Positions 5,209-27,935 of a stretch of 30,042 nt of DNA are shown here, piece after piece. The DNA is from a virus, in IMG/VR virus record IMGVR_UViG_3300020731_000058, positions 1 through 30,042 of that record. One strand, written 5' to 3'. The notes under the pieces are model-generated. The model worked only from the letters and a program-made list of their open reading frames with translations. It had not been told where the DNA came from and did no database searches. Both the position numbers and the translations under genes were made by a program. Numbering within the stretch: position 1 is the stretch's first letter; the number at the start of each line of letters is the position of its first letter.

Positions 5209-5661
5209 ATGTGGTATAACAAGATTAGTAAAGACATTTCTTACATACCAGATGCTGTCGCTTATTTTGAAAGTGAATTGCAAGATGCAAGACAGGATGT
5301 AAAAATAAGTGGCAATATCGAACGTGCAAGTGCGGCTATGCCTGGCTTAGTCGAGCAAAGATTTGCACAGTTGCAAGAAATTGAAGCTATTCTTGAATAT
5401 CTTAACATTGAACTACGAAGATTAAAAAGCGGATTTTTCCGTAAATATCTTGAAAATTATCAACGTGCTCTTAGCAGTCGTGATTGTGAAAAATTTGTTG
5501 AAGGTGAGGCAGATGTTATTGATATGGAAAAAATTATCAATGAATTTGCCTTACTACGCAACAAATGGCTTGGCATTACAAAGGCATTAGATATCAAACA
5601 ATGGCAATTAAGTAACGTGATCAAACTACGTACTGCTGGTATGGAAGACGCTACCTTATGA
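5209..5661 (+). CDS. uvsY: UvsY-like recombination mediator
   Basis: 150 residues, close to T4 UvsY (137). UvsY helps UvsX displace SSB from ssDNA. The protein is almost wholly helical. The C-terminal half has the UvsY pattern: a short YxxNYQRAL region, then EGEADVIDMEKIINEF where T4 has a VLxVD stretch, then a final ALDIKxWQLSNVIKLR helix like the T4 C-terminus. The position after uvsX supports the call. Its stop overlaps the ATG of the next gene (ATGA at 5658-5661). Confidence 0.7.
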   Translation: MWYNKISKDISYIPDAVAYFESELQDARQDVKISGNIERASAAMPGLVEQRFAQLQEIEAILEYLNIELRRLKSGFFRKYLENYQRALSSRDCEKFVEGEADVIDMEKIINEFALLRNKWLGITKALDIKQWQLSNVIKLRTAGMEDATL

Positions 5662-6425
5662 GTGACAAATTAAAAATTGTAGTAGTATCAGGCGGCTTTG
5701 ACCCTATTCATTCTGGTCATTTAGACCTACTTTATAAAGCTCGCGACCTTGGAGATAGACTTATTGTTGGAGTCAATAGCGATGAGTGGCTCGAACGTAA
5801 AAAAGGTCGTGCATTTTTAGATCTACGCACTCGTGTGGATATTATCCAAAGTTTGCGTATGGTGTATGGAGTAGAAACATGGAATGATAGCGACGGGACT
5901 GCTATAAAGTTACTTGAAAAGGTTAAAGCAGAAAATCCCGATGCTACTATTATTTTTGCTAACGGCGGAGATAGAACTGCCGTTAATATTCCTGAATTAG
6001 TTGTACCGGATGTGATATTTAAATTTGGCATTGGCGGAGAAAATAAAAAAAATTCGTCTAGCTGGATCTTGGATGAGTGGAAAGCACCCAAAACTGAAAG
6101 ACCATGGGGATATTATCGTGTATTGCATGACGTTCCTGGAATGAAGGTTAAAGAATTAACTATTAATCCCGGAAAAAAATTGTCAATGCAACGACATAAA
6201 CTACGTGCAGAATATTGGATTGTCAGCGAAGGAACTGCAATAGTTAACAGCAAGATGCCCGGAGGTTATTCATTGCCTTCCTTGAAATTAATGAAACATG
6301 CCGACTATACAGTGCCCAAGACAGAGTGGCATCAACTAGACAATCCTTTCAACGAACCCGTAAAAATTGTAGAAATTCAATACGGCGAATCATGTGACGA
6401 ATCTGACATAGAACGTCAGGACTAA
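5658..6425 (+). CDS. cytidylyltransferase-like nucleotidyltransferase fused to a cupin (mannose-6-P isomerase-type) domain
   Basis: 255 residues. Residues 5-140 form a nucleotidyltransferase of the TagD/RfaE C-terminal/CoaD type: GGFDPIHSGHL at 12-22 holds the HxGH motif (18-21), and NSSSWIL near 132 stands in the place of the family's (I/S)SSTxL motif. Residues about 148-245 form a cupin: ERPWGYYRVL, then NPGKKLSMQRHKLRAEYWIVSEG and a later WHQLDNP, as in the C-terminal domain of type II phosphomannose isomerase / GDP-mannose pyrophosphorylase proteins. A role in making an activated sugar, sugar-phosphate or polyol is likely; substrate unknown. It starts by ATGA overlap with uvsY. Confidence 0.8.
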   Translation: MSDKLKIVVVSGGFDPIHSGHLDLLYKARDLGDRLIVGVNSDEWLERKKGRAFLDLRTRVDIIQSLRMVYGVETWNDSDGTAIKLLEKVKAENPDATIIFANGGDRTAVNIPELVVPDVIFKFGIGGENKKNSSSWILDEWKAPKTERPWGYYRVLHDVPGMKVKELTINPGKKLSMQRHKLRAEYWIVSEGTAIVNSKMPGGYSLPSLKLMKHADYTVPKTEWHQLDNPFNEPVKIVEIQYGESCDESDIERQD

Positions 6426-15040: not shown

Positions 15041-15150
15041 AATGGTTGATTAATTTTCTTTTACGTCCATGGCGAATGTGGCAAGAAAATCGACAGTTTA
15101 AAAAACGCCTAAAAGAATTAAGAGAACGTGATCCGTTCATTTACAAATGA
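15037..15150 (+). CDS. 37-residue basic/amphipathic small protein
   Basis: ATG 15037 with AAGGAGA just upstream encodes 37 residues: a hydrophobic start (MKWLINFLLRPW), a strongly basic helix (FKKRLKELRER) and the ending DPFIYK. ATGA overlaps join it to primase and to the carbamoyltransferase, which supports real translation. It may be a membrane-peripheral or partner peptide; function unknown. Confidence 0.7.
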   Translation: MKWLINFLLRPWRMWQENRQFKKRLKELRERDPFIYK

Positions 15151-16616
15151 TAGTTTGGGGCATATCGGCAAATAGTCACGATGCGGCAATAGCTGTATTT
15201 GTGGATGGCAAACTGGTTTTTGCCAGTCATAGCGAGCGTTATAGTGGCATAAAAAATGACAGAGACCTTTGCAAAGGTCTAGTTATGGCCGCAAAGCATT
15301 GGGGAAATCCTACTAAGGTATATTGGTACGAAAATCCATTTAAAAAATCATTAAGACAATTATTTGCTGGGCAAGGGTGGAAGGGACGAGATAACAATAT
15401 AGAAATTTATTTGGCTCGTTACGAAATTGATGCTCCTGTAGAATATGTTGATCATCATTTAAGTCATGCTGCCGGTGGATATTTTACCAGTGGTCTAGAA
15501 GAAGCGTGTGTAGTGGTTATAGATGCAATCGGAGAGTGGGATACCGCTACAATATGGGAAGCTAAAGGCAATCAACTTAAAAAGAAGTGGAGACTTCGTT
15601 ATCCACACAGCATTGGATTGTTTTATAGTGCAATGACTCAACGTGTAGGTTTAAAGCCAAATGAAGACGAATATATTCTAATGGGCATGGCCGCTTATGG
15701 TGATCCTAAAAAATTAAGTTTTGACATGAGTCACGATTTTATTGACAATTATGGAAATTTGAAATTTATTCGTAATTGTCATAGAGGAGTTCAAGATTGG
15801 CGTCCAGACTTAACAGTTAAAGATAGTTTTGAGATTGCGGCAACTACTCAAGACATATATGAAGAATATTTTCAACATCTACTACTAAAAGCTAAACGTC
15901 TAGTCAACAGTAAAAATCTAGTGTTAATGGGCGGATGTGCCTTAAATTGTAGTGCCAACAGACTAACAGGCAACTATTTTGACAACACATGGATCATGCC
16001 TAACCCAGGAGATGCAGGCAGTGCTGTTGGCGCAGTGCTAGCTAAACATCCAGAATGGAGGATCGATCCATCAAATTTTAATCCATTCTTAGGTCATGAT
16101 ATAGGATATCGTGCATCTAATAAAGAAATAATCGATTATTTGGAAGATAAAAAAATATGTGGATTAGCTAGAGGTCCAGCCGAATTTGGCCCACGTGCAT
16201 TAGGCAATAGAAGTTTAATAGCGGATCCTCGCGGAGAAGATATAAAGGACAAAGTAAATGCAATCAAACAAAGACAAGAATTTAGACCTTTTGCTCCGGC
16301 AATACTCGAGGAGCTTGTTGACGAGTACTTTGTTATGCCTCGTGGTTGGCATAATAGTAGGTATATGCAAGTCATCGCTACTTGTAGGTCTCCTGAGCTT
16401 TATCCTGCTATCATTCATCGTGATGGAAGTTCACGTGTACAAACTGTGCCAAAAGACGGAAGCCCTTTCAGAGAACTCCTAGAACTTTGGTACGCAAAAA
16501 CTGGATGCCCAATGTTACTGAATACTAGTTTAAACATTAAAGGGCAACCGATGGTTAATGATCACGCGGATGCAAAAAACTTTGAACGCCATTATGGTGT
16601 TAAAGTGTTTAATTAA
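15147..16616 (+). CDS. NodU/CmcH-family O-carbamoyltransferase
   Basis: 489 residues, starting inside the previous stop (ATGA). The family transfers carbamoyl from carbamoyl phosphate, via a carbamoyladenylate, to sugar or antibiotic hydroxyls. Seen: ASKHA-like N-terminus (WGISANSHDAAIAVF), HHLSHAA at 103-109, VVIDAIGEWDT around 123-133, GGCALNCSAN (262-271), and YrdC-like C-terminal region GPAEFGPRALGNRS (343-356), with later NTSLNIKGQPM. All key blocks look intact. Similar genes occur in cyanophages. The target here is unknown; lipopolysaccharide, a nucleotide sugar or modified DNA are options, and the nucleotidyltransferase-cupin at 5658 could be in the same pathway. Confidence 0.88.
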   Translation: MIVWGISANSHDAAIAVFVDGKLVFASHSERYSGIKNDRDLCKGLVMAAKHWGNPTKVYWYENPFKKSLRQLFAGQGWKGRDNNIEIYLARYEIDAPVEYVDHHLSHAAGGYFTSGLEEACVVVIDAIGEWDTATIWEAKGNQLKKKWRLRYPHSIGLFYSAMTQRVGLKPNEDEYILMGMAAYGDPKKLSFDMSHDFIDNYGNLKFIRNCHRGVQDWRPDLTVKDSFEIAATTQDIYEEYFQHLLLKAKRLVNSKNLVLMGGCALNCSANRLTGNYFDNTWIMPNPGDAGSAVGAVLAKHPEWRIDPSNFNPFLGHDIGYRASNKEIIDYLEDKKICGLARGPAEFGPRALGNRSLIADPRGEDIKDKVNAIKQRQEFRPFAPAILEELVDEYFVMPRGWHNSRYMQVIATCRSPELYPAIIHRDGSSRVQTVPKDGSPFRELLELWYAKTGCPMLLNTSLNIKGQPMVNDHADAKNFERHYGVKVFN

Positions 16617-27103: not shown

Positions 27104-27133
27104 ATTCTAACATAAATAATACTATGAGAGCAA
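27104..27133 (-). promoter_or_regulatory. sigma70-like promoter (TTGCTC-18-TAGAAT), minus strand
   Basis: Complement of 27128-27133 is TTGCTC and of 27104-27109 is TAGAAT, 18 nt apart. The -35 lies inside the first codons of the rightward gene, and a rightward late promoter sits in the spacer, so the two promoters must compete. Confidence 0.5.
27112..27118 (+). promoter_or_regulatory. late promoter ATAAATA, 5 nt from ATG 27124
   Basis: ATAAATA followed by ATACT and ATG. Predicts a leaderless late mRNA for the two MRATEFITE proteins. Confidence 0.65.
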
Positions 27134-27348
27134 CCGAATTTATCACCGAAATCAAAAAGGGTCAAAAGGACTCAAACGGATATACTAAGTGCTGGACTGG
27201 ATACCATGCCGCAGGTACCAAAAAAGGTAAACACGGTAGTGTACGTAACTGTGTAAAGAATGAAGGTGCTGCCGCAGTCCAAGCCGCTGTAGCTATAGCT
27301 AAGAAAGCATCTGGCAAATATACTAAAGATGGTGTGCGTAAGCGATGA
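27124..27348 (+). CDS. small basic MRATEFITE-tagged protein, probable packaged head protein
   Basis: 74 residues from ATG 27124; longer frames from 26995 would cross the divergent gene and promoter. N-terminus MRATEFITE is nearly identical to the next protein and resembles the T4 internal-protein capsid-targeting sequence MKTYQEFIAE, ending in an IxE prohead-protease site. The mature part is basic (KKGKHGSVRNCVKNEG, KKASGKYTKDGVRKR) with two Cys and a GYHAAGTKKGK stretch. An internal head protein binding DNA and injected with it is the inferred role. Its stop overlaps the next ATG. Confidence 0.7.
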   Translation: MRATEFITEIKKGQKDSNGYTKCWTGYHAAGTKKGKHGSVRNCVKNEGAAAVQAAVAIAKKASGKYTKDGVRKR

Positions 27349-27887
27349 GAGCAACAGAGTTCATAACTGAATCAGCCGCTTGGCAAAAATCCAGTGGTAA
27401 GAATAAAAATGGTGGATTAAACAAAAAGGGTGTTGCTAGCTATCGTGCAGAGCATCCTGGTAGCCATTTACAAACAGCAGTGACTACTAAGCCTAGTAAG
27501 CTAAAGAAAGGTAGTAAAGCTAGTAAGCGTAGAGCTAGCTTTTGTGCTCGTATGAAAGGTATGAAAAAGCATCGTACTGGCAGTAAAACAGCACATGACC
27601 CAAACAGTCGTATTAACAAGAGTCTACGTAAATGGCACTGCGAAAGCGTGGAAGAAATGGCAGAGTTGATTCAATTGGGTGAAAGCTATATAGCTACACT
27701 AAAGGAAAACTTTGCAGATGGTCGGCATCCTGGGCGCAAGGGACTAGCCAAGCGTAGTGGAGTTAATACTAAGGCTAGTGTAAGCAGTCTACGTAATACT
27801 GCTAAACACAGTAGTGGTGAGAAACAGCGTATGGCACACTGGCTAGCTAATATGAAAGCTGGCAAGGCCAAGCATAAGAAAGAATAA
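27345..27887 (+). CDS. basic MRATEFITE-tagged protein with DUF6321-like domain
   Basis: 180 residues, ATGA-coupled to the previous gene. After MRATEFITE come residues 12-94, WQKSSGKNKNGGLNKKGVASY...KASKRRASFCARMKGMKKH...DPNSRINKSLRKW, a domain seen in many T4-like aquatic phages (DUF6321 as I remember it). Then a short acidic helix (ESVEEMAELIQLGE) and another basic region (GRHPGRKGLAKRSG; GKAKHKKE). The high Lys/Arg content suits DNA binding inside the capsid. The LGE near residue 112 is another possible gp21-type site. Function inferred, not known. Confidence 0.75.
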   Translation: MRATEFITESAAWQKSSGKNKNGGLNKKGVASYRAEHPGSHLQTAVTTKPSKLKKGSKASKRRASFCARMKGMKKHRTGSKTAHDPNSRINKSLRKWHCESVEEMAELIQLGESYIATLKENFADGRHPGRKGLAKRSGVNTKASVSSLRNTAKHSSGEKQRMAHWLANMKAGKAKHKKE

Positions 27888-27908: not shown

Positions 27909-27935
27909 AAAATGGGTCCTAGCGGCCCATTTTTT
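27909..27935 (+). terminator. terminator after the MRATEFITE operon
   Basis: AAAATGGGTC (27909-27918), loop CTAGC, GGCCCATTTT (27924-27933) with one T-G wobble, then T run. A clear intrinsic terminator. Confidence 0.88.

Follow-up and report, generated by a model that had tools for sequence, protein, structure and literature searches.

Two adjacent genes of an uncultivated T4-like phage encode proteins that both begin with MRATEFITE and differ in the rest of their sequence. What does this shared start do? The question bears on the proteins that T4-like phages inject together with their DNA, of which detailed knowledge exists for a few phages only. With a tag readable from sequence, injected proteins could be predicted in many uncultivated marine and freshwater phages. 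Such a tag would also account for the recurrence of enzymes in the virion proteomes of cyanophages, and would direct attention to genes at present annotated as hypothetical that encode anti-defence and takeover proteins.

The reading retained here, which we hold to be very probable, is that the pair are internal head proteins of the T4 type, carrying a variant capsid-targeting sequence (CTS), which a gp21-type protease removes by cutting behind ITE. The kind of system, T4 capsid targeting combined with the prohead protease, is already known. No description of the tag variant, the cargo catalogue or the polyprotein layout was found in the open-licence papers searched, and one may exist elsewhere. 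No open-licence paper treating capsid targeting together with metagenomes was found; one review in this literature contains both 'capsid targeting sequence' and 'cyanophage'.

The two genes and their surroundings

The window, i.e. the whole stretch of DNA analysed, is listed in IMG/VR as a linear sequence of 30 kb and belongs to a T4-like phage. Among its products are a gp32-like single-stranded DNA-binding protein (SSB), a UvsX/RecA-like protein, a DnaB-type helicase and large virion structural proteins, and its replication proteins are about 60–82% identical to those of gp21-carrying records. No head-assembly genes were found in this 30 kb fragment. Two further genes, named by reading their sequences, lack the tag: the product of one, at 5658–6425 (+), seems to combine a cytidylyltransferase-like domain with a cupin-like domain of isomerase type in a single fusion, and the other, at 15147–16616, encodes a carbamoyltransferase-like protein.

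Gene 1 (27124–27348, + strand) encodes a basic protein of 74 amino acids. Behind its tag (27124–27150, +) the protein continues with IKKGQKDSNGYTKCW, and its body is a module rich in Cys, Trp and Lys (IKKG..CWxGYHxxGTK..NCV). Protein 1 matched PHROG 10346/4359, and its module occurs in the large families of phage proteins in which protein 2 also falls. Gene 2 (27345–27887, +) overlaps gene 1 by four bases (ATGA) and encodes a basic protein of 180 amino acids, in which the tag (27345–27371, +) is followed by SAAWQKSSGKNKNGG. Directly behind the tag lies a DUF6321 module (residues 10–99; 27372–27641, +), delimited by Pfam and alignment; the PF19846 match covers residues 18–97 (E 4.2e-17, 63 bits against a curated cut-off of 28.5). 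A basic NFADGxxPGRKG module (residues 122–180; 27708–27884, +) was delimited by module comparison. From sequence comparison, both proteins are predicted to be cut after Glu9, with Ile behind the cut in protein 1 (ITE/I) and Ser in protein 2 (ITE/S). Pfam matches of protein 1 to DUF413 and of protein 2 to RGS12_usC were weak, fell under the cut-offs and were discarded.

The initial annotation had described two neighbouring basic proteins with a common start and unrelated bodies, and had argued against a recent duplication. The open reading frames were located as described. The two tag DNAs are identical at 22 of 27 positions and differ in five of nine codons, and blastp finds no significant resemblance between the bodies (best E 0.37), which bears out both points. 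The mature proteins would have a net charge (K+R minus D+E) of +13 for protein 1 (16 vs 3) and +29 for protein 2 (40 vs 11), with pI values of 10.2 and 10.7. The AlphaFold model of protein 2 is mostly helical and of moderate overall confidence (mean pLDDT 71, pTM 0.37). Confidence is low at residues 1–8 and 124–127, as expected for flexible segments. A PDB search with protein 2, by fold and by sequence, gave no match, so the fold gives no function.

Gene 2 is followed by a terminator-like hairpin (27911–27935, +; AATGGG, a 9-nt loop, CCCATT and a T-run), which was read by eye; its loop exceeds the limit of the hairpin scan. Just 5′ of gene 1 lies a weak candidate for a T4 late-promoter-like element (ATAAATA, 27112–27118, +). 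The same element was found within 80 nt upstream of 9/43 tagged genes (21%) vs 308/2547 others (12%), and was not convincing as a feature of tagged genes. A sigma-70 promoter scan gave no more matches than chance.

Start specificity and boundaries of the tag

The motif [KR]x(1-3)EF[IVL]xE occurs 38 times in the proteins of eight related records and the window, and Met precedes it in 31 cases. As Met makes up only 2.4% of the residues in the same set, the tag is not a product of chance. The initial annotation had suggested a search of related genomes for such starts. A degenerate DNA pattern of the tag gave 51 matches in 26 related records vs none when reversed. Ten of these records had been fetched via the tag and sixteen via DUF6321 alone, and the latter gave 16 matches vs none reversed. 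No match was obtained in 50 T7-like genomes. With the relaxed motif M[KR]xx[ED][FLIV][ILV]xE, records chosen via the tag or DUF6321 gave 40 occurrences with Met (0.49 expected) and 20 without; four records chosen only by gp21 gave 4 with Met (0.18 expected) and 8 without. Of 40 records selected for a closely similar gp21, just 3 contained the strict tag, so the MRAxEF spelling is bound to a lineage and not general. Variants in close relatives include MKISELLIE, MKVTEIITE and MTKKSLDSIIME.

The end of the tag was located with 112 ORFs starting with MRAxEF, collected without a pattern that demands later residues. Position 7 was Ile, Leu or Val in 105 of them and position 9 was Glu in 103. The information content of position 9 is 3.71 bits; the next position has just 0.82 bits, a collapse of conservation. 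Among 76 nonredundant bodies, Glu9 was present in 67, and 39 had Ser, Ala, Thr or Gly at position 10. Judged by these residues, the tag ends in the form of the T4 gp21 site, (I/L)xE, and small residues are mildly favoured behind the predicted cut. Within the tag, synonymous codons replace one another freely, which indicates that selection acts on the peptide and not on the DNA. Computation thus gives a peptide that is specific to protein starts, ends sharply after (I/L/V)xE and is spread over unrelated bodies.

Relation to the T4 capsid-targeting sequence

In T4, IPI, IPII, IPIII and Alt carry a CTS that is cut by gp21 (Peptidase_S77). As here, it is a short N-terminal peptide, conserved while the often basic bodies behind it are unrelated, and it ends in (I/L)xE; the sites of Alt are of the same type (PMC3012670, PMC5694885). 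The consensus is MKTYQEFIAE there, whereas it is MRAxEFIxE here. The body families are far more numerous in the present set, modules are also fused with a Glu at each boundary, and cleavage is predicted only. The two spellings are bridged by DUF6321 proteins of cultured cyanophages. T4 IPII and IPIII start with MKTYQEFIAEA; a stand-alone DUF6321 protein of S-CREM1 (91 amino acids) starts with MKTYNDFITEVAAW, i.e. the tag MKTYNDFITE followed by VAAW, and the DUF6321 protein ORF192 of S-SZBM1 starts with MKTFKQYITEA. Proteins belonging to the family of window protein 2 thus bear an almost literal T4 CTS. A relative was found in 454 phage records, nearly all from cyanophages and pelagiphages, and PF19846 falls in the cyanophage cluster T4-GC119. 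In window protein 2, DUF6321 follows the targeting tag directly and does not form the C-terminus of a long protein. No paper naming DUF6321 was found in the open-licence literature; an earlier description elsewhere is possible.

The protease is encoded in related records. gp21/Peptidase_S77 (PF03420) was found in 13 of the 26, namely in 12 of the 13 records of at least 150 kb and in one shorter record. It is present in record G007, in which locus L049 is near-identical to L047, the locus syntenic with the window. Major capsid propeptide sites inferred from the motif are RKYLAE/SATAG in records G010 and G022, GLLTE/A in S-CREM2 and GILTE/A in S-SZBM1. T4 Alt, which according to its annotation resides in the capsid and accompanies the DNA into the host, is processed at two sites, ITE-6 and LTE-619 (PMC5694885). 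In the T4 sequence, the residue behind ITE-6 is Leu, so a cut before the Ile of protein 1 is plausible.

The head ejection proteins of the giant phages SPN3US and phiKZ also carry N-terminal propeptides cut after xxE by a related protease, and two diverged paralogues among them have an identical N-terminus (PMC5694885). Several of their propeptides exceed 100 residues, compared with 9 here, and the motifs are AXE and SXE.

Homologues in virion proteomes

Mass spectrometry of S-CREM2 virions lists ORF137 and ORF160 (PMC10665884, Table 3). In our sequence analysis of the published virion proteins, ORF137 contains DUF6321 and ORF160, a homologue of protein 1, contains its module. No obvious start tag is present in these module proteins or in P-SSM2 123. 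Other non-structural proteins detected in S-CREM2 virions are ORF6 (SAM hydrolase), ORF14 (kinase), ORF154 (cytidylyltransferase) and ORF13 (PMC10665884). They start with MKDFDSFLEE, VKRFDAFLTE (from a GTG codon), MKNFSSFLTEA and MKDLHSFLTE, respectively. The annotated genes of S-CREM2 that match the tag were all detected (4/4 vs 52/219 overall; hypergeometric P = 0.003), with a tag expression that was written after looking at the data. In S-SZBM1 virions, a cytidylyltransferase and ORF139 were detected (PMC9146016); the former starts with MRFRQFIIEA and the latter is a module-1 protein. Only 1 of the 3 tagged genes of S-SZBM1 was detected in virions. Virions of S-SM1 contain the cytidylyltransferase too (PMC3037559).

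CTS-like starts were thus found here on the enzymes of cyanophage virions (NMNAT-like cytidylyltransferase, SAM hydrolase and APH-like kinase), whereas the published accounts, in the parts consulted, report no common targeting signal. The S-CREM2 authors allowed for contamination by free protein among such virion proteins (PMC10665884); a common targeting peptide raises the likelihood that these enzymes are packaged. Another virion-detected protein, S-CREM2 ORF12 (L273:7704–10313, −), annotated as a CRISPR-Cas9 nuclease, has a CTS-like LRFASFMAE/A at about residues 17–26.

Alternative explanations of the tag

The likeness to the T4 CTS proposed in the initial annotation is upheld by the (I/L/V)xE end of the tag, the S-CREM1 start MKTYNDFITE, gp21 in relatives, the capsid propeptide sites and the virion homologues, and on these the variant-CTS reading is founded. 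The shared start might instead be a mobile 5′ gene module, copied by recombination or recent duplication and devoid of targeting function, and it is true that adjacent genes carry it and that tagged genes are often clustered (record G026, for instance, has a run of seven). Synonymous tag codons nevertheless vary widely, the upstream sequences differ, the peptide stops sharply after Glu9 across unrelated bodies, and related phages keep the pattern with other residues (MKISELLIE, MKTYNDFITE). This explanation, already disfavoured, is hardly credible.

The two remaining alternatives concern what becomes of the proteins. Many tagged enzymes (GNAT, NUDIX, nucleotidyltransferase) could act in the cell after synthesis, as early or host-takeover proteins that are never packaged, with a tag serving stability or membrane contact. 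We regard this as very unlikely, given that purified virions contain tagged enzymes (cytidylyltransferase, SAM hydrolase and kinase) as well as homologues of protein 1 and protein 2, and that T4 itself packages the enzyme Alt. Targeting to the virion could also occur without cleavage, the tag staying on the mature protein as a docking peptide; the detection of homologues in virions says nothing about processing. An uncut tag is very unlikely in view of the near-invariant Glu at P1, the (I/L/V)xE form, the matching sites that these phages have in their capsid propeptides and the recurrence of the Glu where modules join within fusions. Packaging followed by a cut after ITE therefore remains the preferred reading.

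Range of tagged proteins

The tagged proteins, from T4-like phages with gp21, fall into about 75 body families by coverage-based clustering. Single linkage gave 32 body clusters, a misleading figure, as shared modules chain proteins together. Pfam domains among the tagged bodies comprise GNAT, NUDIX, ADP-ribosyltransferase, GH19, LysM with transglycosylase, cytidylyltransferase, polymerase-beta-type nucleotidyltransferase and amidoligase, together with a weak match to a polyvalent-protein kinase. One tagged protein (L127:6640–7242, −; MRAKEFIPE/GIHK) carries the ADP-ribosyltransferase domain PF03496, as does T4 Alt. The tag therefore reaches beyond DNA-binding proteins. The DNA-binding character that the initial annotation had suggested for the two window proteins is in line with their basic composition but does not extend to the many enzymes elsewhere. 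Its suggestion that the tag could reveal all packaged proteins also holds in part: the tag marks some 75 body families, but close relatives use variants, and a start of this kind is missing from some relatives associated with virions.

In two cell-wall hydrolases, the tag is followed by a twin-arginine (Tat) signal: a LysM+SLT protein (L150:413–1297, +; MRASEFIAE/DLSRRGFLRGLG) and a GH19 protein (L088:2992–3612, +; MRAVEFIAE/IDRRGFLGALG). As read from these sequences, a cut at the tag would leave the Tat signal near the N-terminus, as if the packaged enzyme were exported after entry. A 25 kb region of record G026 (L215–L216, 48–73 kb) is a candidate island of cargo genes: starts of the type MRxxEFIxE or MKIxxIIxE are present in twelve of its genes. 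Two adjacent genes of this region both start with MKIKDIISED and differ in their bodies.

Fused modules and possible polyproteins

The basic modules DUF6321, IKKG-CW, NFADG, KWSxKYK and LRKWFK are also found fused to one another. Glu stands directly before each module, whether it is Glu9 of a tag or lies inside a fusion. At nonredundant internal junctions, position −1 was Glu in 37/37 and position −3 was Ile, Leu, Val, Met or Phe in 30/37. In the syntenic locus L047, a single fusion of 391 amino acids with the boundary RIME/TAAW replaces the two window genes. Window protein 2 itself has a second candidate protease junction between DUF6321 and NFADG (27699–27713, +; LKE/NF, part of LKE/NFADG at residues 119–126), with a cut predicted after Glu121; the junction Glu is present in 21/21 nonredundant NFADG cases, and residues 124–127 have pLDDT < 50. 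The Ile behind the cut in protein 1 is unusual, yet it is kept in fusions (NLNE/IKKG).

These junctions suggest that the prohead protease may cut the fusions at each module boundary, a slightly favoured reading with roughly an even chance of being right. For the fused relatives, the boundary Glu might rather be the first conserved residue of each domain, with the N-terminal tag alone being cut and no polyprotein being made; this has somewhat less than an even chance. The −3 position before NFADG is indeed less strict (Ile, Leu, Val, Met or Phe in 16/21), and the AlphaFold helix of protein 2 extends to residue 123. On the other hand, five unrelated modules all start right behind a Glu, a preceding tag puts its own Glu9 at that very place, and the L047 fusion has RIME/TAAW where the window has two tagged proteins.

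Proposed mechanism

MRATEFITE would be a lineage-specific form of the T4 CTS. It would attach to the prohead core, and closure of the shell would then enclose the protein. A gp21-type protease would then cut after Glu9, and the basic body (DUF6321/NFADG or IKKG-CW) would stay in the head with the DNA and enter the host from there. In relatives, Glu-ended sites between strung modules would perhaps allow long polypeptides to be cut into separate basic pieces. For the window proteins, core binding, cleavage, DNA binding and ejection are steps that we infer. A wider reading, tentative and rather doubtful as a whole, is that aquatic T4-like phages carry a programmable head cargo. One tag would then serve unrelated proteins by the dozen (ADP-ribosyltransferase, acetyltransferase, NUDIX, nucleotidyltransferase and cell-wall hydrolases in which a Tat signal follows the tag), and basic polyproteins would yield small DNA-packing pieces through prohead-protease cuts between all their modules.

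Two observations concern the head genes of related records. A small gene beside the portal gene (L227:8324–8572, −; L252:6277–6522, +; L245:2795–3046, −) starts with MFLREFIYF, MLLNEFIYF or MFVTELLTE; this tag-like start may be that of a prohead core protein. In record G021 (L242–L245, 55–67 kb), several homing-endonuclease-like ORFs lie between head genes.
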